NCBI GenBank assembly: GCA_001570385.1
Contig: BBYL01000022.1
Coordinates: forward strand, 1-64,000
Source: Microtetraspora glauca
GTDB taxonomy: Bacteria; Actinomycetota; Actinomycetes; Streptosporangiales; Streptosporangiaceae
Reading direction: 5' to 3'
Length of the DNA: 64,000 nucleotides
Under the pieces are notes generated by a model. The model ran no database searches. It saw only the letters and a program-made list of their open reading frames with translations, and was not told the origin of the DNA. Below are positions 8,334-44,566 of the stretch, in pieces. Made by a program: the position numbers and the translations under genes. The stretch's first letter is position 1. Every line of letters starts with the position of its first letter.

Positions 8334-8373
8334 GCCCTCACTCCTCGAACTCCTCGTCACCACGGACCTCCTG

Positions 8374-12054: not shown

Positions 12055-13697
12055 GCGCCGACCACCGCCCTCCTGCGGACCACGAACGGCCCGAGGACCA
12101 GCACGTCCACCGGCGCGGAGCCGAAGCACTCGAGCGCGTCCCTCGGATCGTCCACCATCGGCCGTCCCGCCGTGTTGAGGCTGGTGTTGACCACCACGGG
12201 GAGGCCCGTACGGACCTCGAACTCCTCCAGCGTCCGGGCGAGCAGCGGGTCGCGGGAACGCTCCACGGTCTGGATCCGGGCCGTCCCGTCCACGTGGACG
12301 ACGGCCGGGATCCGGTCGCGCCACTCGGGCCGCACGTCGTGGACGAACAGCATGTACGGGCTGGACGCGGGGCCCCGCGTGAAGATCTCCTGTGCCCGCT
12401 CCGCGAGCACCATGGGCGCGATGGGGCGGAACCGCTCGCGCCCCTTGACCGCGTTCAGCCGCTCGGTGTTGGCCGCGCGGCCGGGGTGGGCGAGCAGGGA
12501 GCGGCGGCCGAGCGCCCGGGGGCCGTACTCGCTCCTGCCCTGGAACCAGGCCACGATCCGGTCGGCGGCCAGCTCGGCGGCGACCGCCCCGGCGAGGTCC
12601 TCGGGACGGTCGTAGGCCACCCGCGCGACGTCCAGCCAGGCGGCCAGCTCCTCGTCCCGCCAGCCGCGCCCGAGGTCGGCGCCCGGCATCGGGGTGACGC
12701 TCTCGCCGTACGCGCGTGCGAGGTGCAGGGCGCCGCCGAGCGCGGTCCCCGAGTCGCCCGCGGCGGGCTGGACCCAGATGTCCTCGAACGGGCCCTCGGC
12801 CAGCAGGCGCGTGTTGGCGACGCAGTTCAGCGCCACTCCCCCGGCCATGGTCAGATAGCGGGCCGAGGTGCGATCGTGCAGCCATCGGGCGAGGTCGAGC
12901 AGCACCTCCTCCAGCCTGGCCTGCACGCTGGCGGCCAGGTCGGCGTGCTCGGCGGCCCACGCGCCGTCGTCCCCGCCCTCTCCGCGCTTGGCGTAGACGG
13001 CCCAGTCGATCGGCTCGACGCGGAACCCGCCGTCGCCGGTCGCGTAGATCAGCTCGCGCAGCTCGGGCAGGTGGCGCGGCTCGCCGTAGGCCGCGAGCGC
13101 CATGACCTTGTACTCGTCGCTTGAGCGGAGGAAGCCCAGGTGCTCGGTGACCTCCTCGTACATCAGGCCGAGGGAGTGCGGCAGCTCCTGACTGGCCAGC
13201 ACGGTGAGGTCGCCGTCGCGGTAGTGCCCGGCCAGGTGGGACACCGCCTCCCCGCGCCCGTCGCAGACCAGCACCGCCGCCTCCCTGTACGGCGCGGCCA
13301 GCCCGGCGGAGGCGGCGTGCGCGATGTGGTGCGGCACGTATCTGACCTGGTCCGGGTCCAGTCCCGGCACGGCGGTGGCGAGGAAGGCCGGGGCCCGCCG
13401 CGCGTAGGTGGTGCGCAGGTCCTCCCAGCGCTCGTCCAGTCCGGCGAGGCCCGGCCGGACCAGCCGGGGATCATAGGAGTACGCGACGGCGTCGAGGTCC
13501 TCGGGGCGCAGGCCGGCCTGCTCCAGGCACCAGGCGGCCGCCTGTTCCGGCAACTCCCAGGCGGAGAACGGCACCGGGCGCTTGCCGTGCTTCCGCCTGC
13601 TGAACCGCTCCTCCTCAGCCGCCGCCACGATCTCGCCGTCGACCACCAGGGCCGCGGCGGGATCATGGAAGATGGCATTTATCCCCAGGAACCGCAT
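12051..13697 (-). CDS. NodU/CmcH-family O-carbamoyltransferase
   Basis: A 548-residue carbamoyltransferase. The N-terminal ASKHA/Kae1-like domain starts MRFLGINAIFHDPAAAL and carries the metal-binding HHIAHAASA motif near residue 122 and LTMAGGVALNC. The C-terminal domain has QGRSEYGPRALGRRSLLAHP and NTSLNTAGRPMVDDP, typical of NodU, CmcH and NovN. It uses carbamoyl phosphate and ATP to carbamoylate a hydroxyl group, usually of a sugar. It is the first gene of the minus-strand glycan operon, so the final glycan is probably carbamoylated. Confidence 0.95.
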   Translation of the reverse strand: MRFLGINAIFHDPAAALVVDGEIVAAAEEERFSRRKHGKRPVPFSAWELPEQAAAWCLEQAGLRPEDLDAVAYSYDPRLVRPGLAGLDERWEDLRTTYARRAPAFLATAVPGLDPDQVRYVPHHIAHAASAGLAAPYREAAVLVCDGRGEAVSHLAGHYRDGDLTVLASQELPHSLGLMYEEVTEHLGFLRSSDEYKVMALAAYGEPRHLPELRELIYATGDGGFRVEPIDWAVYAKRGEGGDDGAWAAEHADLAASVQARLEEVLLDLARWLHDRTSARYLTMAGGVALNCVANTRLLAEGPFEDIWVQPAAGDSGTALGGALHLARAYGESVTPMPGADLGRGWRDEELAAWLDVARVAYDRPEDLAGAVAAELAADRIVAWFQGRSEYGPRALGRRSLLAHPGRAANTERLNAVKGRERFRPIAPMVLAERAQEIFTRGPASSPYMLFVHDVRPEWRDRIPAVVHVDGTARIQTVERSRDPLLARTLEEFEVRTGLPVVVNTSLNTAGRPMVDDPRDALECFGSAPVDVLVLGPFVVRRRAVVGA

Positions 13698-13841
13698 GCG
13701 CGCACCTCCGCTGGGAGTGTTTCGGTGCTGTTACCGAGCGAAGCGCTTCTCAAACGCGGCTTTGCGGGTAGGACGCGATACCTGGAAGCGGTTCTTGACG
13801 ATTGTCACGCTAAGTAGCGATTTCGGGGGTAAGTGCCCGGC
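13698..13841. promoter_or_regulatory. Divergent promoter region of the heptose/glycan locus
   Basis: The 144 bases between the carbamoyltransferase and gmhB must hold promoters for both arms. A perfect 10-bp palindrome GAAGCGCTTC lies at 13740-13749 and a TTGACG at 13795-13800 is a possible -35 element for the gmhB side, though no convincing -10 follows at normal spacing. The region is less GC-rich than the genes around it. Confidence 0.35.
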
Positions 13842-14375
13842 ATGGGTCCACTCGCCGCCGTGCTCTTCGATCGTGACGGGACCTTGATCCACGACGTCCC
13901 GTACAACGCGGATCCGGACCGGGTGTCACCCGTGGCGGGGGCCCGCGCGGCGCTGGACCGGCTCAGGCGCGCGGGCGTACCGGTCGGCGTGGTGAGCAAC
14001 CAGTCCGGCGTCGCCAGGGGCCTGATCACCCGCGCCGCGCTGGACGCGGTCAACGCACGGGTCGAGGACCTCCTCGGCCCGTTCCACGTGTGGGCGGTCT
14101 GCCCGCACGGCGAGGCGGACCGGTGCGGGTGCCGCAAGCCCGCGCCCGGCCTCGTGCTGCGGGCCGCCGCGCTCCTCGGGGTCAGCCCGCGCGACTGCGT
14201 GGTGGTCGGCGACATCGGAGGCGACGTCGAGGCGGCACTGGCGGCCGGGGCGCGCGGCATCCTCGTGCCCACTCCGCGGACGCTCCCCGGCGAGGTGGCG
14301 GCGGCCCGCGAGGTCGTGCCCGATCTCGCCGCGGCGGTGGAGCGAGCACTTCTGGGGGAAGGGACGATCGGTTGA
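13842..14375 (+). CDS. gmhB: HAD-IIIA phosphatase, D-glycero-D-manno-heptose bisphosphate phosphatase type
   Basis: A 177-residue HAD phosphatase of the GmhB/histidinol-phosphatase group. Motif I is FDRDGTLIHD near residue 10, motif II is VVSNQSGVARG, and the zinc loop CPHGEADRCGCRKP (C-x-H-x6-C-x-C) is the GmhB hallmark. It removes the C7 phosphate from heptose 1,7-bisphosphate. The ATG at 13842 is preferred because the GGGGG at 13825 is too close to the alternative GTG at 13833. The required heptose kinase and nucleotidyltransferase are not in this window. Confidence 0.88.
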   Translation: MGPLAAVLFDRDGTLIHDVPYNADPDRVSPVAGARAALDRLRRAGVPVGVVSNQSGVARGLITRAALDAVNARVEDLLGPFHVWAVCPHGEADRCGCRKPAPGLVLRAAALLGVSPRDCVVVGDIGGDVEAALAAGARGILVPTPRTLPGEVAAAREVVPDLAAAVERALLGEGTIG

Positions 14376-15313
14376 AGATCCTGCTCTGGCACGTGCACGG
14401 CTCGTGGACCACGTCGTTCGTGCAGGGCGCGCACGAGTATGTCGTGCCGCTCACGCCCGACCGCGGCCCGGACGGGCGCGGGCGGGCCCGGACCTACCCT
14501 TGGCCCGCGTCCGTACGGGAGGTCCCGTGGGACCGGCTGGCCGCCGAGGACGTGGACGTCGCCGTCCTCCAACGCCCGCACGAGATCGAGCTGGCCGGGA
14601 ACTGGCTGGGGCGCCACGTGCCCGCCGTCTACGTCGAGCACAACACCCCGGTGGGCGAGGTGCCGAAGACGCGGCATCCCCTCGCGGACCGGGACGACAT
14701 CCCGCTGATCCACGTCACGCATTTCAACGAGCTGTTCTGGGACTCCGGCCGCGCCCCGACCCGGGTGATCGAACACGGCGTGATCGACCCCGGCTACCGG
14801 TACACCGGCGAGCTGCCCCGCGCCGGGGTCGTGGTCAACGAGCCGGTACGGCGGACGCGGGTGGCGGGCACGGACCTGCTGCCCGCCTTCGACGTTCCCC
14901 TTGACGTGTTCGGCATGCGGGTCGACGGCCTGCCGTACGGCACGTTCGAGGACCTGCCGCAGGCCGTGATGCACGCCGAGCTGGCGCGACGGCGCGTCTA
15001 CCTGCACCCCTACCGGTGGACCTCGCTCGGCCTCGCCCTCATCGAGGCCATGCTGCTCGGCCTGCCCGTCGTCGCGCTGGCCACCACGGAGGCGGTGGAG
15101 GCGGTGCCGCCGGAGGCCGGGGTGATCTCCACCAGGCTGGCCACGCTGACCTCCGCCGTCTCCGCGTTCGTGGCCGATCCCGAGCTGGCCCGCCAGTACG
15201 GGAAGGCGGCCAGGGCCGCGGCCCTGGCACGCTACGGCCTCCCGCGGTTCCTCTGGGACTGGGACCGCGTTCTCGTCGATTGCCGGGCCGGACGGTTCAA
15301 CGCGCCACGCTGA
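14372..15313 (+). CDS. Glycosyltransferase (GT-B fold, GT1/GT4-like)
   Basis: A 313-residue protein starting at TTG (LKILLWHVHGSWTTSF), overlapping the gmhB stop by four bases with GGGGGAAGGG upstream. The C-terminal half has a GT4-like E-x7-E region: HPYRWTSLGLALIEAMLLGLPVVALA, followed by a typical terminal helix pair. The N-terminal half is shorter than in standard GT4 enzymes. It lies in the divergent arm of the heptose locus and is the fifth transferase of the set. It converges on egtD with a 17-base overlap. Confidence 0.85.
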   Translation: MKILLWHVHGSWTTSFVQGAHEYVVPLTPDRGPDGRGRARTYPWPASVREVPWDRLAAEDVDVAVLQRPHEIELAGNWLGRHVPAVYVEHNTPVGEVPKTRHPLADRDDIPLIHVTHFNELFWDSGRAPTRVIEHGVIDPGYRYTGELPRAGVVVNEPVRRTRVAGTDLLPAFDVPLDVFGMRVDGLPYGTFEDLPQAVMHAELARRRVYLHPYRWTSLGLALIEAMLLGLPVVALATTEAVEAVPPEAGVISTRLATLTSAVSAFVADPELARQYGKAARAAALARYGLPRFLWDWDRVLVDCRAGRFNAPR

Positions 15314-16226
15314 GCGCGAGGGCGAAGTCGCCGTCCGGATCGGTGTACCAGCGGTCCAGGTCGAAGCCCGCCCGCGCCAGCTCGGTCGCGAGGCCCTCAC
15401 GCCGGAACTTGGCGCTGATCTCGGTACGCATCTCCTCCCCGCGTATGAAGTAGACCGACAGGTCGAGATCGCGTACGTGCACCCGCATGGGACGGGAGGC
15501 GCGCAGCCGCATCTCGATCCACTCGTTCTCCTCGTCGTACCGGGCGACGTGCGTGAAGTCGTCAGGGACGAAGTCGGCGCCCAGCTCCCGGTTGATCACA
15601 TGCAGGACGTTGCGGTTGAACGCGGCCGTCACGCCCCGGCCGTCGTCGTACGCGGCGATCAGGCGGTCCCGGTCCTTCACCAGGTCCACGCCGAGCAGGA
15701 AGGCGTCCCCGGGTTTCCTGGTGGAGCGCAGCTCCTTGAGGAACACCTCTCTGGCCTCGGGGTCGAGGTTGCCGATCGTCCCGCCCAGGAAGGCCACCAT
15801 CCCCGGCGGCAGCAGGGACAGGTGATGTTCGAAGTCCGCGCACACCGGGCGTACGGAGAGGCCGGGGAAGCGCGTGGTCAGCCGCCGCGCGGTGGCCCTG
15901 AGGGTGACCGCGTCCACGTCCACCGGCATGTAGACGCGCATGCCCGCAAGCAGCAGGCCGGTCTTCTCGCTGGTGCCGGAACCCAGCTCGATCAGGGTGT
16001 CGGAGCCGCTCCGCCGCACGATGTCGGCGGCGTGGGACCGGAGGATGGCCAGCTCACGCCGGGTCGGGTAGTACTCGTCCAGCCGGGTGATCCGGGAGAA
16101 CAGCTCGCTGCCCGCCGCGTCGTAGAACCACTTGGGCGGCAGCCACTTCGGCTCCGCCGTGAGTCCGGTGCGGACGTCGCTTTCGAGTGCCTGGCGCAGA
16201 TAACCGCCGTCGAGATGGTTGATCAC
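15297..16226 (-). CDS. egtD: L-histidine N-alpha-methyltransferase
   Basis: A 309-residue SAM-dependent methyltransferase (DUF2260 family) that trimethylates histidine to hercynine, the first step of ergothioneine synthesis. Visible are LPPKWFYDAAGSELFSRIT with the conserved YD, the SAM motif LIELGSGTSEKT, a later FLGGTIGN motif and the DLVKD segment. The GTG start follows GAGGAGCGG. It is the last gene of the egtABCD set; 38 bases separate it from egtC. The 3' end overlaps the converging glycosyltransferase gene. Confidence 0.96.
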   Translation of the reverse strand: MINHLDGGYLRQALESDVRTGLTAEPKWLPPKWFYDAAGSELFSRITRLDEYYPTRRELAILRSHAADIVRRSGSDTLIELGSGTSEKTGLLLAGMRVYMPVDVDAVTLRATARRLTTRFPGLSVRPVCADFEHHLSLLPPGMVAFLGGTIGNLDPEAREVFLKELRSTRKPGDAFLLGVDLVKDRDRLIAAYDDGRGVTAAFNRNVLHVINRELGADFVPDDFTHVARYDEENEWIEMRLRASRPMRVHVRDLDLSVYFIRGEEMRTEISAKFRREGLATELARAGFDLDRWYTDPDGDFALALSVAR

Positions 16227-16264
16227 TTCCGCTCCTCGGATACGTGTCAGACGTGCCTGACGGG

Positions 16265-16990
16265 TCAGATACGTGTCACGCTCACGCCGTCGGGAGAGGC
16301 GAGAACCAGCGTCCGGTCATCGACGGCACGCCAGCCCGGCCTGCCGTCCAGGGGCTCGCTCGCCAGGAGCACGCCCTCGTGGACATGGGTGAAAAGGGTG
16401 TCGCCCCACGCGGTGGCGACGATCTCGGATCCCCCGCAGACGAGAAGGTTGAGCCGTGCCGCCGGGTCCGCCCGCGCCGTCTCGGTGACGACCTGCGCCA
16501 CCGCGTCGGCCACCGGCATGCCGGCGCGGAGCCGTGCGAACACGGCGGAGGCGAGCCACGCCGAGTCGCACGGGCTCTCGGGGTCCATGCCGTTCCCCGC
16601 GACCGCCACGCCGTTTCCCGCGACCGCGACGCGATCCACCCGGCCGTTGTGGCTGAGCAGCCACCGGCCGTCGGAGAAGGGCGCGGTCGCGCTCTCCTCG
16701 ATCGGCATGCCGATGGTCGCCGACCGGACGGCGGCCAGCAGGCAGCCCGACCGTGCCACGTCGGCGATCCCGGGCAGGTTGGCGTCCGCCCAGATGGGCA
16801 CCGAACGGCGGTAGCGGACCGGCTCCGCCCGCGCGGCGTCGTACCAGCCCACGCCGAACCCGTCGGCGTTGACGGTCCCGTACCGCTGCAGCCGGGGCGC
16901 GTACGCCTGCAGGAGCAGGCCGTGCTCCGGCTCCCCGATCAGCGACGACAGGGGCCGGGACGGCCCGAGCCAGGCCGCGTGCCTGCACAC
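16265..16990 (-). CDS. egtC: Gamma-glutamyl-hercynylcysteine sulfoxide amidohydrolase
   Basis: A 241-residue class II glutamine-amidotransferase-fold hydrolase. The GTG start gives MCRHAAWLG; Cys2 is the catalytic nucleophile exposed after Met removal. GFGVGWYD and LLSHNGRVD are family motifs. It removes the glutamyl group from the EgtB product. A short duplication (VAVAGNG repeated twice) sits near residue 125, encoded by an almost identical 21-base repeat at about 16603-16640. It begins seven bases after the egtB stop. Confidence 0.95.
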   Translation of the reverse strand: MCRHAAWLGPSRPLSSLIGEPEHGLLLQAYAPRLQRYGTVNADGFGVGWYDAARAEPVRYRRSVPIWADANLPGIADVARSGCLLAAVRSATIGMPIEESATAPFSDGRWLLSHNGRVDRVAVAGNGVAVAGNGMDPESPCDSAWLASAVFARLRAGMPVADAVAQVVTETARADPAARLNLLVCGGSEIVATAWGDTLFTHVHEGVLLASEPLDGRPGWRAVDDRTLVLASPDGVSVTRI

Positions 16991-16997
16991 GCGCCCC

Positions 16998-18323
16998 TCA
17001 CCCGGCCCCTCGGGCGCACCGGAACCCGGCGAAGATCTGCCGCCGGATCGGATAGTCCCAGTTCCGGAACGTCGTACGGGCGGCCGTGGGATGGGTGGCC
17101 CACGATCCGCCGCGCAGCACGCGGTAGGTCTCGCCGAAGAACACCTCGCTGTACTCGGCGTAGGGGAAGCTCCGGAAACCCGGATACGGCTGGAACCAGG
17201 AGGAGGTCCATTCCCACACGTCGCCGATCAGTTGCTCCGCGCCGTACGGCCCGGCCCCCGCGGGGTACGCGCCGACGGGTGCGGGTCTGGCCGCCCGGTG
17301 GCCGAGGCCCGCCTGGTCCGCCCGGGGTTCCGCGTCGCCCCACGGGAAGGTGCGGCCGCCGCACGCCTTCTCCCATTCCGCCTCGGTCGGCAGCCGCTTG
17401 CCCGCCCACCGGGCGTAGGCGTCGGCCTCGTACCAGGAGACGTGCTGCACCGGCTCGTCCGGCGGCACGGGCTCCATCCGGCCGAAGCGGTCGCGCCACC
17501 AGCCGTCACCGTTCCGGGTCCAGAACAACGGGGCATGGATCCCCTTCGCGCTGACCCACTCCCAGCCCTCCGGCCGCCACCAGCGCCGGTCGCCGTACCC
17601 GCCGTCCGCGACGAAGGCGGCGTAGTCGCCGTTGCTCACCGGCCAGCGGTCGAGCCAGTAACCCGGCAGGTTCACCAGATGCGCGGGGCGCTCGTTGTCG
17701 TACGCCCAGGGCAGCGTGTCCGTCCCCATCGTGAAAGGGCCGGGGGGCACGAAGACCTCGCGGGACGGCGCCCCTGCCCCCACCGCGGACGGGACGCGGC
17801 CGGGGGGCGACTCGCCGTCCCTGATCAGCCCGGGTTCCCTGGAGAGCTGCAACGTCGCGAGCATGGTCTCGTCGTGCTGGTGCTCGTGCTGGAGGACCAG
17901 GCCGAACACGAAACCTCCCGCGCGCAACGGGTCGGGGTCCTCCAGGTCGACGGCGTCGAGCACGTCGAGGACCCGGCCGCGGACCCCGGAGATGTACCGC
18001 CGCGCCTCGGCGGGCCCCAGGAGGGGCAGCGCGGGCCGGTTCTTGCGCGGATGCTTGAACGCGTCGTAGATGTCGTCGATCTCGGGGCGCAGCGGGGTGA
18101 TCCCCCCGGCCTCGCGCAGCACCCACAGCTCCTCGTAGTTGCCGACGTGGGCGAGGTCCCACACCAGCGGGGACATCAGCGGCGAGTGCTGGCGCACCAG
18201 CAGGTCGTCCTCCAGGTCCGTGTACGCCAGGGACCGGTCGCGGGCGGCGGCCAACTCGGCGGCGATCAGCTCCTTGGGCGCGTGTCGCGGGTCCGGTTCC
18301 CGCTGGGCAAGCCGTTCTCTCAT
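16998..18323 (-). CDS. egtB: Hercynine oxygenase (iron-dependent sulfoxide synthase)
   Basis: A 441-residue non-heme iron enzyme joining hercynine to gamma-glutamylcysteine with oxygen. The N-terminal DinB-like domain contains the iron ligands, seen as LVWDLAHVGNYEELW and the HEHQHDETM motif (H-x3-H type). The C-terminal formylglycine-generating-enzyme/C-lectin domain has FTMGTD, LPTEAEWEKA, VWEWTSSWF and VLRGGSWATHP. The start ATG at 18323 overlaps the egtA stop by four bases. Confidence 0.96.
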   Translation of the reverse strand: MRERLAQREPDPRHAPKELIAAELAAARDRSLAYTDLEDDLLVRQHSPLMSPLVWDLAHVGNYEELWVLREAGGITPLRPEIDDIYDAFKHPRKNRPALPLLGPAEARRYISGVRGRVLDVLDAVDLEDPDPLRAGGFVFGLVLQHEHQHDETMLATLQLSREPGLIRDGESPPGRVPSAVGAGAPSREVFVPPGPFTMGTDTLPWAYDNERPAHLVNLPGYWLDRWPVSNGDYAAFVADGGYGDRRWWRPEGWEWVSAKGIHAPLFWTRNGDGWWRDRFGRMEPVPPDEPVQHVSWYEADAYARWAGKRLPTEAEWEKACGGRTFPWGDAEPRADQAGLGHRAARPAPVGAYPAGAGPYGAEQLIGDVWEWTSSWFQPYPGFRSFPYAEYSEVFFGETYRVLRGGSWATHPTAARTTFRNWDYPIRRQIFAGFRCARGAG

Positions 18324-19453
18324 ACGCACATCTCCAGGTCGAGGGCCGGAGATCGGCCGGGTTCGATGTGCCGGGCGGCGAACCGGTCCACCCGGTCGAC
18401 CAGCCACGGCTCCGCTCCCAGGCGGGGCAGCGCCTCGACGGCGGCGCGGAAGCAGGCCTCGGCCGTCCGTCTCAGGTGGGGTTCCGCCAGGCCGAACCGG
18501 GCGGCGCGCACCCAGGCCCCGCGGACCGGCCACGCCGCGTCGAGAGCGACGTCCCCCGCCCGGTCGTCCGTGACGAGCGCGTGGACCACGGCCACGCAGA
18601 CCGGCCAGTCGTCCAGCGCCTGGGCGTCGAGGTAGCGCGTCTCCATCCAGCCGCGCGGCCGTACCGGCGGGAAGAGGGTGGTCGCGTGGTAGGCCAGGTC
18701 CTCGTCGGTCGGCGGCCTCCCGGCGACCCGGGCGAACTCCCGGTACGGCGAGCCGTCCAGGACCACCCGGCATCCGGCGGCGCCGTCGCCCGCGCTGTCC
18801 CGGACCAGCATGAGACGGGCGTCGAGGAGGTAGCCGGCCCACTCCTCCACCGGGTCGCCTCCCATGGCGACGGGAGCCGTCCTGGTCCGGTCCAGGTGGT
18901 GCCAGACGGCCTGGCGACCGGACATCCAGCCGTCCCTCGGCGAGTTGGCGAAGGCCGCGACCAGCACCGGGCCGAGCAGGTGCGCCCGGTCCCAGCGGAC
19001 ACGCGGGTTCGCCCCGAAGTCGAGGTTCACCTGGATGGAGGCCGTCGAGCACATCATCAGCCGCCCGTACGGCACGCCCAGGAACGCCGCCATGGCGTCG
19101 TACCGGGGAAGGCGGAGCTGGCGTCGGGGCGGCCGGAACGGGTCGAGCGCGAAACCGCCGAGCACCAGTCCCGCTCCGGAGAACGCGAGCCGTACGGCGT
19201 CCAGGTCGGAGACGAGGCCCGCGACGGCCTGCGACAGCGGGAGCGGAGGCGTGGCGAGTTCGAGCTGCCCGCCGGGCTCGAAGGTGACGCGGCTCCCACC
19301 GGGCAATGGCGGAAGCGCGTCGGCGACGCGGGCGATGGGCACCTGGCGTGACGGCGTCTCCGCGTCGAACACCAGGAACTCCAGCTCTACGCCCACCCGG
19401 TCCGTTTCGGTGCGCTGGAAGCACCCCCGCGCAAAAGCTTGAACATCCGTCAT
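18320..19453 (-). CDS. egtA: Glutamate-cysteine ligase of ergothioneine pathway
   Basis: A 377-residue GCS2-type glutamate-cysteine ligase supplying gamma-glutamylcysteine to EgtB. The N-terminus has VGVELEFLVFD, the ATP/Mg-binding strand, then FEPGGQLELATPP, and the middle has STASIQVNLDFG; all are conserved in EgtA. The ATG at 19453 is chosen over a start 15 codons upstream because GGAGGGG precedes it. First gene of egtABCD; the pyridoxal-dependent C-S lyase step (EgtE) has no gene in the window. Its promoter should lie in 19454-19543. Confidence 0.95.
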   Translation of the reverse strand: MTDVQAFARGCFQRTETDRVGVELEFLVFDAETPSRQVPIARVADALPPLPGGSRVTFEPGGQLELATPPLPLSQAVAGLVSDLDAVRLAFSGAGLVLGGFALDPFRPPRRQLRLPRYDAMAAFLGVPYGRLMMCSTASIQVNLDFGANPRVRWDRAHLLGPVLVAAFANSPRDGWMSGRQAVWHHLDRTRTAPVAMGGDPVEEWAGYLLDARLMLVRDSAGDGAAGCRVVLDGSPYREFARVAGRPPTDEDLAYHATTLFPPVRPRGWMETRYLDAQALDDWPVCVAVVHALVTDDRAGDVALDAAWPVRGAWVRAARFGLAEPHLRRTAEACFRAAVEALPRLGAEPWLVDRVDRFAARHIEPGRSPALDLEMCV

Positions 19454-35356: not shown

Positions 35357-36316
35357 CTAGCTCGTGGCGGCCATGTACCACCGGGCGTGACCGTCCCCCC
35401 GCGTCAGCGAGTCGAGCCGTCTGGGCAGCTCCTGCCTGGAGAAGGGATCGCCGGAGGCGTTGCGGATGTGGATGCCGACGGCGTACATGTCCCTGACCTC
35501 CATCAGGGTGCTGTATCCGGGCCAGTGCCGCAGATCCGAGCCGTACGCGTGGGCGAACGCGTCCACCTCGGCCGCGGTCAGGCCGAACCGGCGCTGCCCG
35601 TGATAGGTGTGCACGAGGTCCCATTCGCGGGGCCCCACGGCGACGCCGTCCCAGTCGCACAGCACGACGTGGCCGTCCTGGCAGCGCAGCAGGTTGTCGA
35701 TCCACGCGTCGCCGTGCAGCAGCACGGGCGGCCCGGTCTCCAGTGCCTGCCAGCCCCAGGTGAGGTGCTCGATCCGGTCGCTCAGCCAGGCCCGCTGACC
35801 CGGCGTCAGCACCTCGGCGCGATGCTCGACCGCGTGCCGCACCTCGGCCAGCGGGTCGGTGAGACGGCGCAGCGCCATCGGCGGCACCGGCTCCTTGTGC
35901 AGGTTGCGCAGCACCCGGCCGAGCTCGCGCGTGGTCGGGCGGCCCCGCGACCGGACGTACCGCCAGAAGGTGACCGCACGCCCCGCGTGGACGATCGGCT
36001 GGCCCGGGATCTCGTCCACCGGCCGGACGGTCGGGAAACCGCGGTCGGCGAGCCAGCGGGCGACGGCCAGGACCACGGGCAGCCGGGTCAGCGCGTCCGG
36101 GGCCGTGGCGATTCGCACGACCATGTCGCCGCGCAGCTTGAACACGGCGTTGCTGCGCAGCCGCATGAGCTGCGCTCCCCCGGCGTCCACCCCGATCTGG
36201 CGGCACACGTCCCGCAGCACGGTGTACGCCTCGTCGGACAGTGACGACTCGCTCGACGACGTGTTCGACGACGTGTTCGACGACATGCCGGGTGACAGGT
36301 TCGCGGAAAGGTTCAT
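35357..36316 (-). CDS. APH/choline-kinase-fold phosphotransferase
   Basis: A 319-residue kinase of the aminoglycoside-phosphotransferase fold. HGDAWIDNLL (the HGDxxxxN catalytic loop, about residue 208) and CDWDGVAVGPREWDL (metal-binding D) are intact; VVRIAT suggests the N-lobe. The first 27 residues are a serine/asparagine-rich tail with a SSNT repeat, encoded by a short tandem repeat at about 36250-36285. Its start overlaps the stop of the XRE/TPR regulator gene by four bases, so the two form an operon. The substrate is not predictable; drug resistance is not implied. Confidence 0.85.
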   Translation of the reverse strand: MNLSANLSPGMSSNTSSNTSSSESSLSDEAYTVLRDVCRQIGVDAGGAQLMRLRSNAVFKLRGDMVVRIATAPDALTRLPVVLAVARWLADRGFPTVRPVDEIPGQPIVHAGRAVTFWRYVRSRGRPTTRELGRVLRNLHKEPVPPMALRRLTDPLAEVRHAVEHRAEVLTPGQRAWLSDRIEHLTWGWQALETGPPVLLHGDAWIDNLLRCQDGHVVLCDWDGVAVGPREWDLVHTYHGQRRFGLTAAEVDAFAHAYGSDLRHWPGYSTLMEVRDMYAVGIHIRNASGDPFSRQELPRRLDSLTRGDGHARWYMAATS

Positions 36317-37743
36317 AGGGCGAGCCGCGCCGACGACTCGGCGAGCACCCGGTTCAGATGCCGTACGGCGGGCGTCCGTGGATCCACGTCGGTCAGCAGC
36401 GCCTTGGCCCGGGTCACCACGATCGAGGTGCGGTGCTCGGCGGGGACCTGGGTCAGCGCCTCGGCGGCGATCCGGCACGCCTCCTCCTGGTCGCCGTGCC
36501 TGGCCAGATGGGACGCCTGGTCCAGCAGGATCAGCGCGGGATCGATCGTCTGGAAACCGGGCGGGAAGGCGTCGATCGCCTGCATCGGCTGCGCGTCGCC
36601 CAGCTCGATCAGCGTCCCGGTCCGGTAGAACAGCATCCGCTTCTCGGTGAAGACGAACGCCAGGTCGTCCTGGCTCAGGCCCCGCATCCTGGCGAAGATC
36701 TGCTCGGCCTCGGCGAGGGCCACCCTGGCGGCCTTGCCGTTCCCCATCCGGGCCAGGGCGCGGGCCTCGGCCGCCGCCGCGAGGGCCGCCGGCGAGCTCG
36801 GCGCCGACCCGGCCAGCATCCGCGCCTCGCGCGCCAGCCGTACGGTCTCGTTGAGGTCGCCGTAGTAGTAGAGCAGCATCGTCTGCTGCGCCCGGACCAG
36901 AGCACGCAGCCGCAGGTCCCCGACGTCGTCGGACGCCGCCCTGGCCGTGCCGTACCAGGCGTGGGCCTGCCGCGTGTCGCCGAGCTTCATCAGCGCGTCC
37001 GCGGACAGGAGGGCGAGCATCGTGGTCGCGGTGAGCAGGCGGCGCTGCGCGGAGGACGGCTGCCGCATCACGGTCAGCTTGCGCACGTCGGCGATCTCCA
37101 GCATCACCCGGCAGAGCATGGGCATCGGCGGAGTCGTCATGTACTCCCTGCGGTAGCGCAGCACCTGCTCGTCCAGCCGGTCGAGCTGGTCCTCGGTGAC
37201 GGTGCCGGTGGCGAGCGCCCGGTCGAGGTCGTGCCTCGTCCCCTCGACCTCCGCGAAGAACCGGCCGTTCGGCGTGCCCATGAGCGCGGCGTGGTGGAAG
37301 TGCGCCCGCCGCTCGGTGTCGTCCCCCGCGTCGTCGACGCGCACCGGCTCGTCGGGCTGACCCGCCGCGACCACGACGACCTTCTGCCCGCCCGTGTCCT
37401 CGCAGTAGTCCGCCGCCATGCCGAGCCGTACGGCGTTGGCCTTGTAGAGCCGGGCCAGCAGGTCGATGGTCTGGGGGCGCGGCCTGGCCCGGTTGTTCTC
37501 CCAGGCGTTCAGCAGGTCGATGCTGGCCCTCGGCAGTCCCAGCGCGTGCTGCTCGCAGAGGTATTCGAGCTCCTCGATCGCCTGCCGGGCCGACCACCCC
37601 CGCGCGAGCCGATGCGCCTTCAGCATGCTCACGCCGCAACATCCGTGGATGGCCTGCACCGTCTGCCACGGTGTCCACTGCCGAACCTCGGCCTGCTCGC
37701 GCCAGCGACGAGCGCACGCGGGGGAATGCTCTCCTCGGGCCAT
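36313..37743 (-). CDS. XRE-family regulator with C-terminal TPR-like domain
   Basis: A 476-residue regulator. The first 85 residues form a helix-turn-helix with LLNAWENNRARPRPQTIDLLARLY. The remaining 350 residues form helical hairpins of TPR type (LLSADALMKLGDTRQAHAWYGTA, ALARMGNGKAARVALAEAE). This is the architecture of peptide- or small-molecule-sensing actinomycete regulators. The ATG at 37743 follows GGGCAGGA. It is divergent from the 94-residue protein gene across 242 bases and coupled to the kinase gene downstream. Confidence 0.88.
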   Translation of the reverse strand: MARGEHSPACARRWREQAEVRQWTPWQTVQAIHGCCGVSMLKAHRLARGWSARQAIEELEYLCEQHALGLPRASIDLLNAWENNRARPRPQTIDLLARLYKANAVRLGMAADYCEDTGGQKVVVVAAGQPDEPVRVDDAGDDTERRAHFHHAALMGTPNGRFFAEVEGTRHDLDRALATGTVTEDQLDRLDEQVLRYRREYMTTPPMPMLCRVMLEIADVRKLTVMRQPSSAQRRLLTATTMLALLSADALMKLGDTRQAHAWYGTARAASDDVGDLRLRALVRAQQTMLLYYYGDLNETVRLAREARMLAGSAPSSPAALAAAAEARALARMGNGKAARVALAEAEQIFARMRGLSQDDLAFVFTEKRMLFYRTGTLIELGDAQPMQAIDAFPPGFQTIDPALILLDQASHLARHGDQEEACRIAAEALTQVPAEHRTSIVVTRAKALLTDVDPRTPAVRHLNRVLAESSARLAL

Positions 37744-37985: not shown

Positions 37986-38270
37986 ATGAAGGCAGATCGC
38001 AGCGAGGCGATGGACCACCTTGAGCGGCTGGCCGCCCAGCTCGAAGCCCACTCCTTCCAGGTCCGCCTGACCGCGCCGGCCGGGCTCTATCCACGCCTGC
38101 GCGTGGTCAACCCCATGGAGCCGACCATGGCCGAAGACGTGCTGGCGTCGGACACCAACGACGGCGAGTGGTGGTACTGGCTGTCGTGGGCCGGTCGGAT
38201 CGGGCACGCCTCCGACGTCGTCACCGCCGCCGAGCGCATCGCCAGCGTACTGCACGTGATCCGCCGATAG
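37986..38270 (+). CDS. Small conserved actinomycete protein, 94 residues
   Basis: A 94-residue soluble protein: an N-terminal helix (EAMDHLERLAAQLEAHSF), a central LRVVNP strand, an acidic loop and a WWYWLSWAGRIG aromatic motif, then a final helix. The pattern matches a small protein type often encoded beside XRE-type regulators in actinomycetes, as I recall; its function is unknown. GGAGAG sits just upstream of the ATG. It may be the first gene of the plus-strand unit leading to the CysRS paralogue. Confidence 0.75.
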   Translation: MKADRSEAMDHLERLAAQLEAHSFQVRLTAPAGLYPRLRVVNPMEPTMAEDVLASDTNDGEWWYWLSWAGRIGHASDVVTAAERIASVLHVIRR

Positions 38271-38345
38271 CACGGTCGCGGCACCCGCTATTCCCCCTTC
38301 GCCCGGCCTCACAATCCGCATTTCAGGATGTGCGGACCGGAGACT

Positions 38346-38375
38346 ATGGCATGCTGTCGACAGCGAGCGGATTAG
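38346..38375 (+). CDS. Candidate Cys-Cys leader peptide upstream of CysRS paralogue
   Basis: A nine-codon frame, MACCRQRAD, ends 18 bases before the CysRS-like start. It has two adjacent cysteine codons (TGC TGT), rare by chance in so short a frame. GGAG lies close upstream (spacing only 3). The end overlaps a small stem AGCGA/TCGCT (38362-38380). Tandem-cysteine leader peptides act as attenuators in mycobacteria, which is the analogy used here. The main gene itself has no clear ribosome site. It remains a hypothesis. Confidence 0.35.
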   Translation: MACCRQRAD

Positions 38376-38393
38376 TCGCTTACCCTGGGCTAG

Positions 38394-39731
38394 GTGGGTC
38401 TTCGCCTTTACGATACGCACCGCCGCACGGTCCGCGATTTCATCCCGAGAATTCCGGGAATGGCATCGATTTATCTTTGTGGCCCCACCGTGGTCGTGCC
38501 GCCGCATATCGGTCAGATCAGATCTCAGGTGAATTTCGACATCCTGCACCGCTGGCTGCGCCACAGCGGGTACCGGGTGCTTTTCTGCCGGAACGTCACC
38601 GACATCGAGGACAAGATAATCGGCAGGTCCCTTTCCGAGGGCATCCAGTGGTGGCGGATAACCGATCCCGTCTACCGGTCCTTCGACCGGGCCTACACCA
38701 CGCTCGGGTGCCTTCCGCCCAGCGTGGAGCCCCGGGCCACCGGCCACATCCCCGAGATGATCGAGCTCGTGGAGCAGCTTCTCGCGGCGGGTCACGCCTA
38801 CGAGTCCGAGGGGAACGTCTATTTCGAGGTCGACTCGTTCCCGGACTACGGATCACTTTCCCGGCAACGGCCGGAGAAAATCCGGATAACCGAGGAGAAC
38901 GAGCACGGAAAGCGCGATCCGCGCGATTTCGCATTGTGGAAGCGGGCGAAGCCGGGCGAGCCGATCTGGCACGCCCCATGGGGCGACGGCCGCCCCGGAT
39001 GGCATCTGGAATGTTCGGCGATGGCCCGGAAGTATCTCGGTCGCGAATTCGACATCCACGGCGGCGGCGCGAACCTGATATTTCCGCACCATGAGAACGA
39101 ACTCGCCCAGTCCCGGGCGGCCGGGGATTCTTTCGCGCGGTTCTGGGTGCACAACGGGCCGGTCACCCACCGGGGCGAGAAGATAAGAAAGCACGCGCTC
39201 AATCCACTCGCCGTGCACACCCTGCTCGACCGCGTACGCCCGATGGAACTCCGCTATTACCTCGCGGCCGCCCACTACCGGTCGCCGATGGAATTCTCCG
39301 TGGCGGCGGTCGAGGAGGCGGCCACCGCCTACCGGCGGATGGAGCGGTTCGTGCTCCGCGTCGGCGCCGCCGCGGGCTCCGACCTTCCCGCCCAGTTCAG
39401 CGACGCCATGGACGGCGATCTCAACGTGCCGCGGGCGCTGTCGGTCGCGCACGCGACGGTCGCCGAGGGCCATGCGGCGCTCAATTCCGGCGACCAGGAA
39501 AGCGCCGCGGTGAAATGCCGGTCGGTGCGCGCGATGCTGAATGTCCTCGGACTCGACCCGCTCGCCGACGACCGGCCGAGGGAAACGCGCCTCCACGACG
39601 TCGCGAGAGCCGTACTCCGCGTCGCGCGGAATCTCGCCGCGACCGAAGGCGATCACGAAAGATCAATGATCATGGAACGGCAGATCGACCGTGCACTCCA
39701 AAATCGCCGCGAATCAGCACTTATCCCGTAG
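38394..39731 (+). CDS. Cysteinyl-tRNA synthetase paralogue with altered active-site motifs
   Basis: A 445-residue protein related along its whole length to actinobacterial cysteinyl-tRNA synthetase (usually about 465). Zinc ligands are kept: Cys29 in YLCGPTV, Cys in HLECSAM, and HHENE. The HIGH motif is HIGQ (38-41), and the KMSKSLGN loop is KIRKHALN (263-270). NVTDIEDKII and YEPRATGHIPEM-type segments are conserved. With both catalytic signatures changed, normal tRNA charging is doubtful. Codon use includes ATA and AAA/GAA codons and is less GC-rich than neighbours, suggesting acquisition from elsewhere. The GTG at 38394 matches the family N-terminus. It could be a resistance copy, a tRNA-binding regulator or a biosynthetic ligase. 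Confidence 0.85.
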   Translation: MGLRLYDTHRRTVRDFIPRIPGMASIYLCGPTVVVPPHIGQIRSQVNFDILHRWLRHSGYRVLFCRNVTDIEDKIIGRSLSEGIQWWRITDPVYRSFDRAYTTLGCLPPSVEPRATGHIPEMIELVEQLLAAGHAYESEGNVYFEVDSFPDYGSLSRQRPEKIRITEENEHGKRDPRDFALWKRAKPGEPIWHAPWGDGRPGWHLECSAMARKYLGREFDIHGGGANLIFPHHENELAQSRAAGDSFARFWVHNGPVTHRGEKIRKHALNPLAVHTLLDRVRPMELRYYLAAAHYRSPMEFSVAAVEEAATAYRRMERFVLRVGAAAGSDLPAQFSDAMDGDLNVPRALSVAHATVAEGHAALNSGDQESAAVKCRSVRAMLNVLGLDPLADDRPRETRLHDVARAVLRVARNLAATEGDHERSMIMERQIDRALQNRRESALIP

Positions 39732-41437: not shown

Positions 41438-42556
41438 TCACGGGTGCGTGCCGCGGACCAGGTCGTAACAGCGCTCGAAACCGTCGAGCACGGCCGGCCA
41501 GGAACAGGCGACCGGCTCCACCTCGCGGTTGTGCGCGGCGATCGAGGTCCGCAGCCGCTCGTCGCGCACCAGACGCGCGACCGACGCGGCGAGCTCGTCG
41601 AAGGTGCGGCCGAGCAGGCCCTCCTTGCCCGGCCGGACGAAGTCGGCGACCCCGCTCTGGGAACGCGCGACCACGGGTACCCCGGCCGCCCTGGCCTCCA
41701 GCGCCGCCAGCCCGAAGGACTCGCGCGGCGCGGGGGCGACGAACACGTCGGCCGAGCCGAGCAGTTCCTTGATCTGGTCCCGGCTGAAGCGGCCCGGCAG
41801 CGACACCCAGCCCATCCCCTGGGACCGCAGGTAACGCTCCATCGAGGCGCGGGCCGGCCCCTCGCCCACGATCGTCGCGCGCATCGCGATCGAGGCGGGC
41901 ACCTTCGCGCGGGCCGCCTTGAGCAGTTTGAGCAGGCGCACCGGCTGCTTGCGCGGCGCGAGCCGCCCCACCGCCACCACGTGCACGCCGTCCGCGCCCG
42001 GCTCCCCGCCCCCGCGCACGGCACCGCCGGTCGCGGGTCGCCAGGCGGAGACGTCCAGGCCGTTGGAGACGACGTGCACCGGGACGCCGGCGCCGGCCAC
42101 GGCGCGGATGGGCTGGGCCGCCGCCTCGCTCACCGCCGTGACGGCGATGCCCCAGCGCCGCCATTCGAAGGCGGCCTGCAGGCCGAGGTAGACGCCGGAG
42201 GTGACGGGATCCCACATGCTGTGCACGGTCACCACGACCGGCACCCCGGCCCGTACGGCGGCGCGCACGCCCTGCCAGGCGAACGGCGAGACGGCGCCCG
42301 CGTGGACGTGCACGACGTCGGGCCGCCAGCCGGTCATCAACCGGATCAGGTGCACGGTGCCGCGGGGGTGCACGGGGAGGTCGAACGGGAGCCCGGCCGC
42401 GAGGCGGCGCACTCCCGGAAGAGGCTCCCCGGGGGTCGCGGTGGCCACCTCGACGGTGTGACCCGCCTCTCGCTGCATCCCGACGAGGTCGGCGACCTGC
42501 ACCTCGATGCCCCCGAGTCGCGGGAGGTAACAGTCACTGATGTGAAGGATCCTCAC
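41438..42556 (-). CDS. GT4 family glycosyltransferase
   Basis: A 372-residue GT-B enzyme. It begins VRILHISDCYLPRLGGIEVQV (the GG-x-E loop of GT4) and has VVAVGRLAPRKQPVRLLK and PRESFGLAALEARAAGVPVV (E-x7-E). The GTG at 42556 is preferred over a TTG one codon earlier. It is divergent from the PIG-L deacetylase and UPF0104 membrane protein. This trio suggests formation of a glycolipid or phosphoglycan: transfer of an N-acetyl sugar, its deacetylation and membrane handling. That link is inference. Confidence 0.92.
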   Translation of the reverse strand: MRILHISDCYLPRLGGIEVQVADLVGMQREAGHTVEVATATPGEPLPGVRRLAAGLPFDLPVHPRGTVHLIRLMTGWRPDVVHVHAGAVSPFAWQGVRAAVRAGVPVVVTVHSMWDPVTSGVYLGLQAAFEWRRWGIAVTAVSEAAAQPIRAVAGAGVPVHVVSNGLDVSAWRPATGGAVRGGGEPGADGVHVVAVGRLAPRKQPVRLLKLLKAARAKVPASIAMRATIVGEGPARASMERYLRSQGMGWVSLPGRFSRDQIKELLGSADVFVAPAPRESFGLAALEARAAGVPVVARSQSGVADFVRPGKEGLLGRTFDELAASVARLVRDERLRTSIAAHNREVEPVACSWPAVLDGFERCYDLVRGTHP

Positions 42557-42624: not shown

Positions 42625-43419
42625 GTGTCGAGAACCGCGGTCTTCTTTCACGCTCATCCTGACGACGAGGCGCTGCTGACTGCCGGGACGATGGCGATGC
42701 TGGCCGCGGAGGGCCATCGGGTGGTGCTGGTGGTCGCGACCGCCGGGGAGCGGGGCCTCGCCGATCTGCCCCACGGCGAGGAGCTCGCCAGGGCCCGCAT
42801 GGACGAGTTGCACACGTCGGCGGCGGCGCTCGGCTGCGCCCGGGTCGTCCTGCTCGGATACGGCGACTCCGGGCTGGCCATCGACGGCGGCGTGGCGGAG
42901 GACCGCCCGGACGACGCGTTCATCGACGCGGACACGGAGGAGGCGGCGCAGCGGCTCGCGGCGGTGCTCAAGGAGGAGACCGCCGATCTGCTGACCATCT
43001 ACGACCCGGCCGGGGGGTACGGCCACCCCGACCACGTCCAGGTGTACCGCGTCGGCACCCGTGCGGCCGAGATCGCCGGGACTCCCATCGTGCTCGAGGC
43101 CACGGTCAACCGCGACCCGCTCCTCAAGGGTGTACGGCTGGCGGCCCGCCTCTATCCCAAGATCGATGTGAGAAGTTTCGAGAGTGCCTACTCGCCGAGC
43201 CACGTGATCACCCACCGGGTGAACGTCCGCAGGTACGCTCGGGCGAAACGGGCCTCGATGGCCGCCCACGCCAGCCAGACGACCGGCGGGGACGGCGACC
43301 GCACCCTCGGCGTCCTGCTGAAGATCCCGTTCTGGGCGTACCGGCTGATCTTCGGCACGGAGTGGTACGTCCGGCGGGACGTCCCGCAGGGGACCCGGCT
43401 GCGGCACCCCTTCCACTGA
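42625..43419 (+). CDS. PIG-L/LmbE-type N-acetyl sugar deacetylase
   Basis: A 264-residue zinc deacetylase. FFHAHPDDEALLTAG contains the HPDDE metal and base motif, and GGYGHPDHVQVYR contains the second metal histidine. Relatives include MshB and Mca of mycothiol metabolism and LnmX-like enzymes; this one is not close enough for a name. The GTG start is 68 bases from the divergent GT4 start, and a shared promoter region is implied. The hairpin after it separates it from the UPF0104 gene. Confidence 0.92.
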   Translation: MSRTAVFFHAHPDDEALLTAGTMAMLAAEGHRVVLVVATAGERGLADLPHGEELARARMDELHTSAAALGCARVVLLGYGDSGLAIDGGVAEDRPDDAFIDADTEEAAQRLAAVLKEETADLLTIYDPAGGYGHPDHVQVYRVGTRAAEIAGTPIVLEATVNRDPLLKGVRLAARLYPKIDVRSFESAYSPSHVITHRVNVRRYARAKRASMAAHASQTTGGDGDRTLGVLLKIPFWAYRLIFGTEWYVRRDVPQGTRLRHPFH

Positions 43420-43519: not shown

Positions 43520-44566
43520 ATGAGCAAGTGGTTGCGGGTCGCGATGTCGATCGCCTCGCTCGGACTCGCGGCGACTCTGATCGTCTTCCTCCCGCAGATC
43601 GTCGGCACGATGACCGGGGCGAAGGTGTCCTGGTCCGAGATCGGCCGCCTGTTCGGCACGCTGAGCTGGCAGATGATCGCCCTGATGACGGCCGTCTGGC
43701 TGGCCAGCCTGCTGGCGTACACGTTCGTGCTCACCGGCTCGCTGCCCGGCCTGACGCACGCCCAGGCGCTCACGTTGAACGCGGCGGGCAGCGCCGTCAG
43801 CAACCTGCTGCCGTTCGGCGGCGCGGCGGGTGTGGCGCTGACCTTCGGCATGACACGCGGCTGGGGGTTCGCCACCCGCTCGATCGTGGTGCTGACCCTG
43901 GTCAGCGGCATCTGGAACACGCTGTTCCGGTTCATCCTGCCCGCGGCCGGCATCCTCGCGCTGCTGCTGTCCGGGCGGGCGCTGAGCCCGGCGGTCGCCA
44001 ACGCCGGCTGGGCGGGGGCGATCTCGATCCTCGTGCTGGTCGCCGTGGTCGCGTCGGCGCTGTACTGGGAGCGCGCGGCCCAGTTGCTCGGCCGCGCCCT
44101 GGACGGCCTCGTCCGGCTCGCGCCGCGGCGAGTCCGCCCCGCGGAGCACTGGGCCTCGGACGCGCTCATCCGGCTGCGCAAGGACACGACCGACGTGGTG
44201 CACAGCCGCTGGGCGACGCTCTCCCTCGGGATGATCGCCTTCCTGATCCTCCAGTGGCTGATCCTGGTGCTCTGCCTGCACGGCACCGGCTCCTATCCGG
44301 GCCTGGCCGAGTCGATCGCCGTCTTCGCGCTGTCGCGGGTGCTGACCAGCGCCCTGGCGACGCCGAGCGGGGCCGGTTTCATGGAGGCCGGTACGGCTCT
44401 CGCCCTGGTGGCGTTCGGCGCGCCGGAGGCGGGCGCGACCGCCGCCGCCATCCTGTTCGGTTTCTGGACGTACACGATCGAGATCCCCTGGGGCGGTCTC
44501 GCCCTCGGTGGGTGGGCGCTCTTCCGCCGCCGCGCCGCCGACCGGAACCCGGTCAAGGTGGACTGA
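43520..44566 (+). CDS. UPF0104/lysylphosphatidylglycerol-synthase-like membrane protein
   Basis: A 348-residue membrane protein with about eight segments, of the flippase-like LPG_synthase_TM (AglD/MprF N-domain) family. Family segments include NLLPFGGAAGVALTFGM, a conserved glycine-rich loop, and the final SRVLTSALATPSGAGFMEAG. Family members flip or handle polyprenyl- or amino-acyl lipids. GAAGGATG provides the start. Grouped with GT4 and PIG-L genes it suggests a glycolipid role. Confidence 0.88.
   Translation: MSKWLRVAMSIASLGLAATLIVFLPQIVGTMTGAKVSWSEIGRLFGTLSWQMIALMTAVWLASLLAYTFVLTGSLPGLTHAQALTLNAAGSAVSNLLPFGGAAGVALTFGMTRGWGFATRSIVVLTLVSGIWNTLFRFILPAAGILALLLSGRALSPAVANAGWAGAISILVLVAVVASALYWERAAQLLGRALDGLVRLAPRRVRPAEHWASDALIRLRKDTTDVVHSRWATLSLGMIAFLILQWLILVLCLHGTGSYPGLAESIAVFALSRVLTSALATPSGAGFMEAGTALALVAFGAPEAGATAAAILFGFWTYTIEIPWGGLALGGWALFRRRAADRNPVKVD

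Follow-up and report, generated by a model that had tools for sequence, protein, structure and literature searches.

A cysteinyl-tRNA synthetase-like paralogue with altered nucleotide-site motifs in Streptosporangiaceae

Among the paralogues of cysteinyl-tRNA synthetase (CysRS), the available part of one source names CysRS* and MshC (PMC9437257), and MshC is treated alongside MetRS paralogues in the accessible text of another (PMC2922099). Excerpts on the MshC structure describe a KMSKS loop and a histidine of the HIGH motif that touch an adenylate mimic (PMC9736012); further excerpts report that the HIGH histidines and the Asp or Gln in contact with the ribose are important for the activity of TyrRS (PMC5919687), and that the effects of HIGH and KMSKS in LeuRS depend on context (PMC10450160). 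Here, we describe CysL, a CysRS-like paralogue encoded in the window (the whole stretch of 64,000 nucleotides of Microtetraspora glauca DNA that was analysed; Table 1). The literature searched gave no description of a CysL-type clade among the matches listed, and none that paired cysteinyl-tRNA synthetase with Streptosporangiaceae, the family of the host. We propose, with a probability of roughly 0.4, that CysL is a neofunctionalised CysRS paralogue that may activate cysteine and ligate it to an acceptor other than tRNA. It offers a natural experiment, an aminoacyl-tRNA synthetase (aaRS) paralogue with a sharp residue signature in which the amino-acid pocket appears to be kept and nucleotide and tRNA recognition to be rebuilt.

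Table 1. Features of the CysL locus, in window coordinates. Locus counts for the GT4, PIG-L and LPG-type genes refer to the stretch read per locus.
Feature	Position	Strand	Remarks
APH-type kinase, backbone neighbour	35357..36316	-	PF01636, 72.4 bits; 21/21 loci
NsdA-family TPR-like regulator, backbone neighbour	36313..37626	-	NF053720, 101.7 bits (cut-off 75); 21/21 loci
Small 86-aa protein, upstream, backbone neighbour	38010..38270	+	20/21 loci; also in loci without CysL
-35-like hexamer TCGACA	38357..38362	+	T[C/T]GACA in 42/42 upstream regions parsed
-10-like TACCCT	38381..38386	+	Ends exactly 7 nt upstream of the start codon, as TANNNT does in 42/42 parsed
CysL, CysRS-like paralogue	38394..39731	+	One open frame, GTG start, 445 aa
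C29, presumed Zn/cysteine ligand	38478..38480	+	36/36 CysL, 155/155 canonical
HIGQ, residues 38-41 (canonical HIGH/HIGN)	38505..38516	+	Fourth residue Q in 36/36 CysL; canonical H 139, N 16 of 155
C207, H232 and E236, presumed Zn/cysteine ligands	39012-39014, 39087-39089, 39099-39101	+	36/36 CysL, 155/155 canonical
N227, replacing the invariant Asp of GGGxDL	39072..39074	+	CysL N 35, P 1 of 36; canonical D 155/155
KIRKH, residues 263-267, replacing KMSKS	39180..39194	+	K263 and K266 36/36; R265 35/36
Helical tail at the C-terminus, residues 400-445, in the position of the anticodon-binding domain of CysRS	39591..39728	+	6/6 canonical-conserved positions replaced
GT4 glycosyltransferase, distant MshA/BshA-like, backbone neighbour	41438..42556	-	Profile matches; 17/21 loci
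PIG-L deacetylase, MshB/Mca-like below their cut-offs, backbone neighbour	42625..43419	+	PF02585, 69 bits; 16/21 loci
Membrane protein, LPG_synthase_TM/flippase-like, backbone neighbour	43520..44566	+	15/21 loci

A conserved paralogue beside canonical cysS

In an NCBIfam profile search, CysL scores 365.4 bits with the cysS model TIGR00435 (cut-off 340) and 246.5 bits with TIGR03447, the model of MshC (cysteine:GlcN-Ins ligase; cut-off 485.1). Passing the curated cysS cut-off, such genes would therefore be named cysteine--tRNA ligase, a name that would apply though two defining features of the family (HIGH/HIGN with KMSKS, and the PF23493 domain) fail. Pfam recognises the CysRS catalytic domain and, weakly, DALR_2, which is present in all 13 CysL proteins searched. 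A first reading of the locus from its sequence alone (hereafter the sequence-only reading) had described full-length similarity to CysRS; the likeness stands but weakens beyond about residue 390-410, and PF23493 goes unrecognised. The host genome (9.27 Mb in 62 contigs) encodes a canonical cysS with HIGH and KMSKS (C7:337665, 467 bits), so the suggested search for a second cysS leaves CysL as not the only one in the genome; MshC lies separately (C12:140353, 635 bits), and MshA (631 bits) and MshB (393 bits) are both located away from the CysL locus.

In the host's family, CysL is carried by at least 43 of the 341 genomes searched, from 11 genera (G000-G003, G041-045, G074-080, G091, G096-112, G222-226, G230, G338, G345-346 in our numbering), including all four genomes available for the host's genus, where the copies are 88-100% identical. 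A class-wide sample of 394 genomes from the larger class contains at least 7 with CysL, all in the host's family, with CysL at 872 bits and above and the next of the matches listed at 654 bits and below, the level of ordinary cysS. The family search scored five candidates per genome and the class search four, and a very divergent CysL could escape both. Each of the 43 CysL genomes also has a canonical cysS scoring >460 bits with the cysS model (CysL: 355-387 bits) and one MshC gene over the cut-off of its own model (609-644 bits). A check proposed at the outset was whether HIGQ and KIRKH are conserved across a clade with the same neighbours: HxGQ occurs in 43/43 genomes, K[IV]RK in 40 of 42 parsed proteins (KIHK in the other 2), and the APH-type and NsdA-family neighbours in all 21 loci. 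In the GGGxxL motif of the same 42 proteins, the residue before Leu is Asn in 40 and Pro in 2; the protein outside the parsed set, from G097, was read separately and has HLGQ and KIRK.

In a quick tree of 87 rows, the 21 CysL rows form one side of a branch (SH-aLRT 100*), with G345 and G338 as the deepest members; 15 CysL rows, mostly close to those retained, were omitted. The sister of CysL within actinobacterial CysRS is an open fork in this tree, with long-branch warnings. Over the columns used for the tree, the canonical CysRS of G001, a member of the host's genus, is identical to that of M. niveoalba (L016). As judged from coding-sequence comparisons, CysL is under long-term selection beside cysS: its dN/dS is 0.13-0.17 in three within-genus comparisons, set against 0.05-0.09 for canonical cysS and 0.07-0.31 for neighbour genes. 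No PADLOC defence family was matched by CysL or its three upstream neighbours, and when the same four genes were compared with phage families a single PHROG (30090, function unassigned) matched CysL. Relatives in plasmid collections (624 records) are all under 60% identical to CysL, and those in viral collections (13 loci) just 34-44%.

Another CysRS-like type (367-373 aa, HLGH/KMAKS) was seen in L322 (4653-7485), L323 (4577-7415) and L324 (4669-7519), where 10 bp separate the start of its gene from a preceding PolX/PHP-type DNA polymerase gene and a metallo-beta-lactamase-rhodanese gene lies alongside; it has a catalytic domain and no anticodon domain (by Pfam for L322, by likeness for L323 and L324). 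A third, full-length CysRS (HVGN, KMAKS/KMSKS) is found at about position 5900-7500 in L326-L329, adjoining genes for a UvrD-like helicase and a Sigma70_r4/HARE-HTH protein (by Pfam, L326 only) and sharing its stretch with an HPDDES-type gene that appears Mca-like by eye; shorter, degenerate-looking copies are present in L330 and L331.

Residues kept and replaced in CysL

CysL was aligned as 36 distinct sequences (from 42 loci) with the host MshC and 155 distinct canonical CysRSs (from 164), a set that leans to close relatives because the best 80 matches were taken. Of 109 positions conserved in at least 90% of canonical CysRSs, 95 are also retained by at least 90% of the CysL rows, one is mixed among them and 13 are replaced, namely 72 (D to E), 227 (D to N or P), 264, 265, 267, 269, 341, 415, 425, 428, 431, 435 and 439. 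By region, the replaced positions make up 4/7 in the KMSKS loop, 6/6 in residues 400-445 and 3/96 elsewhere (Fisher p = 1.8e-9, for regions drawn post hoc). The motifs quoted in the sequence-only reading (HIGQ at 38-41, KIRKHALN at 263-270 and GGGANL) are all exact in the 445-aa frame, and the retention of C29 and FPHHENE was borne out as well. On its own, HIGQ departs less from the canonical motif than it seems to, since Asn already stands at the fourth position of some canonical CysRSs.

C29, C207, H232 and E236, which we take to be the Zn/cysteine ligands of CysRS, are accompanied by W203, H38, K263 and K266, also invariant in 36/36 CysL rows. At the KIIK site, K74 is retained in 35/36 rows, and the fourth position is G, S, H, N or R in 35/36; Lys stands there in only 18/155 canonical CysRSs. 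The mean charge of the KMSKS loop is +2.8 in CysL versus +1.3 in canonical CysRS. By class I precedent, D227 would be the Asp through which CysRS touches the ribose. In G345, the deepest member, further invariant residues are lost (K74 to M, E206 to Q, D to P). Residues C43, C231 and H256 of MshC, as given in the available part of its structure report (PMC9736012), correspond to three of the four Zn/cysteine ligands of CysL. Since the host MshC keeps D227, M264, S265, S267 and G269 (with Gly where E236 stands), a new acceptor alone fails to explain the nucleotide-site changes of CysL; lost or changed use of ATP would account for them.

At the C-terminus, PF23493 was found at E <= 0.01 in 0/13 CysL, 9/9 canonical CysRSs (7/9 over the Pfam cut-off) and 0/1 MshC. 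An AF2 model of CysL from a 61-row alignment (pLDDT 90.6; used instead of one from 13 rows, pLDDT 58) has a CysRS fold, with residues 400-439 predicted as two helices of low confidence (tail block pLDDT about 36-71). The closest solved fold is CysRS 1u0b_B (Z 52.3, rmsd 6.0, 429 aligned), followed by CysRS 1li5_A (Z 50.3, rmsd 1.9, 374 aligned); MshC 3c8z_B is also matched (Z 46.0, rmsd 2.1, 368 aligned). The alignment with 1u0b_B, at that rmsd of 6.0, reaches chain residue 446, and the tail of the model therefore still sits at the place of the anticodon domain; it may be a degenerate remnant of that domain without recognition residues, rather than a clean deletion.

Gene neighbourhood, promoter and tRNA genes

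Relatives of the NsdA-family regulator occur in 93/341 family genomes at E <= 1e-60, including 43/43 with CysL and 50 without, and relatives of the PIG-L deacetylase in 174/341 at the same threshold, again including 43/43 with CysL. CysL and PIG-L share a contig in 41 of the 43 genomes, 1.6-13.8 kb apart (median 5.2 kb), and lie on different contigs in 2. The gene order APH-NsdA-...-GT4-PIGL-LPGtm-BTAD is the same in 12 fetched loci that are free of CysL (G007, G015, G018, G218, G235, G310, G324, G326, G329, G332, G333 and G339), a non-random set picked for NsdA and PIG-L matches within 20 kb on one contig, and G229 has APH, NsdA, GT4 and PIG-L together but, over the 17 kb read, lacks both CysL and the gene of the 86-aa protein. 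Because the neighbour genes also occur without CysL, the neighbourhood gives no specific functional link. The idea of a mycothiol-like operon, in which GT4, PIG-L and the CysRS-like gene would parallel MshA, MshB and MshC, was accordingly set aside as main evidence: the block stands without CysL in those 12 loci, relatives of PIG-L and NsdA extend beyond the CysL genomes, and the neighbour GT4 ranks just 12th among the MshA-like genes of the host.

Elsewhere in the window, about 19 kb from CysL, lies an ergothioneine cluster, egtD-egtC-egtB-egtA (15297-19396, minus strand), in which EgtD, EgtC and EgtB score over their NCBIfam cut-offs and EgtA just under (347.5 versus 370.8). A sugar cluster (5768-15313) contains a GmhA-like isomerase, a GmhB-like HAD phosphatase, a NodU-like carbamoyltransferase (195 bits, far under its cut-off), a GT4 that scores 222 bits as MshA (under the cut-off) and, by eye, GT9- and epimerase-looking genes. 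RNA families at the gathering threshold were absent from the window.

The -35- and -10-like elements upstream of CysL are separated by 18 bases in 41/42 regions and by 17 in one, and the start codon is GTG in 40/42 and ATG in 2/42; this geometry would suit a leaderless transcript from an ordinary promoter. Within the window, the promoter motif and a conserved TCACAAT element each occur only once. Between the 86-aa gene and the promoter there is an element, TCACAATC-GCATTTC (38309-38324), present as a single copy in the window and recognisable by eye upstream of many clade genes. The third-position GC content (GC3) of CysL is 0.83, versus a mean of 0.94 for the other called genes of the window, and the gene is enriched in AAT, ATA, AAA and AGA; across loci, GC3 is about 0.79-0.87 in the window gene and 18/20 orthologous loci, all in high-GC genomes, and CysL ranks first or second for low GC3 in 19/21 (rank 4 in G338 and G345), with synteny and GC3 based on gene calls from our own caller, which truncated the CysL start in many loci. 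Eleven of the 23 AT3 codons conserved in place fall within the first 38 codons, a clustering at the 5' end that matches a leaderless start only in part. The AT-rich codons had earlier been taken to suggest acquisition, and the lower GC3 is real, but recent acquisition is unsupported, because CysL has one syntenic place in 21 loci, its GC3 is low in 19 and its four-fold third positions turn over at about the rate of its neighbours; taken with the tree, these observations leave a recent arrival unsupported by the low GC.

Genes for tRNA are absent from the window and from all 20 orthologous loci scanned, each 17.7-20 kb long. The host genome has 60 tRNA-model matches with ordinary anticodons, among them three tRNA-Cys, all GCA, and no tRNA-Sec, though odd tRNAs under the RF00005 threshold could escape; a special tRNA partner for CysL was looked for and not found in the window, the 20 loci and the tRNA set of the host. 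The three tRNA-Cys(GCA) genes lie within about 49 kb of each other (G000:C15, at about 90108, 115407 and 138977), in arrays that include tRNA-Gly and, in two cases, also tRNA-Val.

Candidate functions and comparison with known systems

We infer that CysL does not charge tRNA-Cys for translation. The sequence-only reading had held it to be no normal tRNA-charging enzyme, for which the support is indirect: the motif changes are fixed in a clade of 43 genomes, cysS coexists in all of them, and residues of the anticodon domain are replaced. As a cysteine-activating ligase, CysL would use Zn to select L-cysteine, as in CysRS and MshC, a nucleotide in the rebuilt pocket would activate the cysteine carboxylate, and the cysteinyl group would then pass to an acceptor picked without regard to any anticodon; an amine of a small molecule or of a protein is the likeliest. 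H38, K263 and K266 probably take part in nucleotide-phosphate chemistry, and that they are so strictly kept favours an activation step that still operates over the mere binding of a ligand. Against this reading, CysL passes the TIGR00435 cut-off, G345 has lost further invariant residues, the tail may be left over from the anticodon domain, and two of the nine canonical PF23493 matches are also under the Pfam cut-off; the neighbours, moreover, tie CysL to no particular acceptor pathway.

A possible alternative, to which we give clearly less weight, is a pseudo-synthetase that serves as a cysteine sensor or regulatory subunit, in which Zn-bound cysteine or cysteinyl-AMP alters the interaction with a partner; CysL would then be a cysteine-sensing aaRS relative. 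An intact cysteine pocket next to an altered nucleotide loop and anticodon domain is what this would predict, and the earliest-branching CysL sequences have lost more of the residues that are invariant elsewhere. All 43 CysL genomes contain an NsdA-family regulator, which stands beside CysL in 21/21 loci, but the 50 genomes that have such a relative and no CysL make this link non-specific, and the residues thought to serve nucleotide chemistry are kept in 36/36 rows. HisZ is a class II protein. It provides a precedent, described in the available part of PMC9437257 as a HisRS paralogue without adenylation activity.

It is unlikely that CysL is linked to tRNA, either charging an unusual tRNA or minihelix without reading an anticodon or moving cysteine from Cys-tRNA to another acceptor. 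Catalytic and DALR domains kept beside an unrecognised anticodon domain would suit such a role, for which CysRS* of Desulfobacterales and SbzA are precedents in the excerpts of PMC9437257, but the window and the 20 orthologous loci are free of tRNA genes and the tRNAs of the host are ordinary. Improbable, too, is a narrower proposal of a mycothiol-like pathway not yet described, in which GT4 and PIG-L would make an amino-sugar acceptor and CysL, with its rebuilt nucleotide site, would join cysteine to it; the product would be another cysteinyl glycoside, either a new small thiol or a glycolipid that carries cysteine, alongside mycothiol and ergothioneine. The co-occurrence of PIG-L in all CysL genomes, on the same contig in 41, speaks for it, and the pairing of GT4 with PIG-L in the 12 fetched CysL-free loci and in G229 against it.

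We consider it quite improbable that CysL is an active, divergent second CysRS, stress-conditional or inhibitor-resistant, that still charges tRNA-Cys. The TIGR00435 score, the retained catalytic lysines, first His and Zn ligands, and a tail that could be a divergent anticodon domain are compatible with it, but CysL has lost the invariant Asp and each of the six conserved residues at the C-terminus, and it is one clade alongside canonical cysS in 43/43 genomes. The resistance variant put forward earlier was likewise judged unlikely, since such a variant must still charge tRNA-Cys. A dedicated cysteine persulfide synthase, derived from the PLP-dependent side activity of CysRS (CPERS), is very improbable: the KMSK lysines (36/36) and K74 of KIIK (35/36) are kept and Escherichia coli mutants separate CPERS from tRNA charging, but the fourth KIIK residue is not Lys in 35/36 CysL (though variable in canonical CysRS too), and the Zn ligands, invariant in CysL, are dispensable for CPERS according to the accessible portion of PMC5660078.

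A cysteine-activating ligase remains our preferred reading, and it can be set beside the described systems. HisZ-type paralogues resemble CysL as paralogues that stand beside a working synthetase with a changed nucleotide site, but HisZ has a known partner in the available text of PMC9437257, whereas a partner of CysL is only hypothetical. The CysRS* of Desulfobacterales is, in the same excerpts, a CysRS paralogue without an anticodon domain that accompanies SelC*/SelB* (PMC9437257); in contrast, tRNA genes are missing from the surroundings of CysL, and the host genome yielded neither an odd tRNA-Cys nor a tRNA-Sec. With canonical CysS (TIGR00435), CysL shares the class I catalytic domain, DALR, the four Zn/cysteine ligands, H38 and both KMSKS lysines, at about 50-62% local identity to actinobacterial CysRS, and it differs in HIGQ, KIRKH, D227N and D72E, in the unrecognised PF23493 and in its coexistence with canonical cysS. 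MshC is likewise derived from CysRS, lacks PF23493, binds cysteine through Zn and occurs in Actinomycetota. However, it is only about 34-39% identical to CysL, which scores under the MshC cut-off and has a longer C-terminal tail; the host MshC has canonical HIGH, KMSKS and D227 but Gly at the place of E236; and a separate MshC accompanies CysL in 43/43 genomes. If CysL is a ligase, it would add to MshC another cysteine chemistry that arose from CysRS in these thiol-rich actinobacteria.
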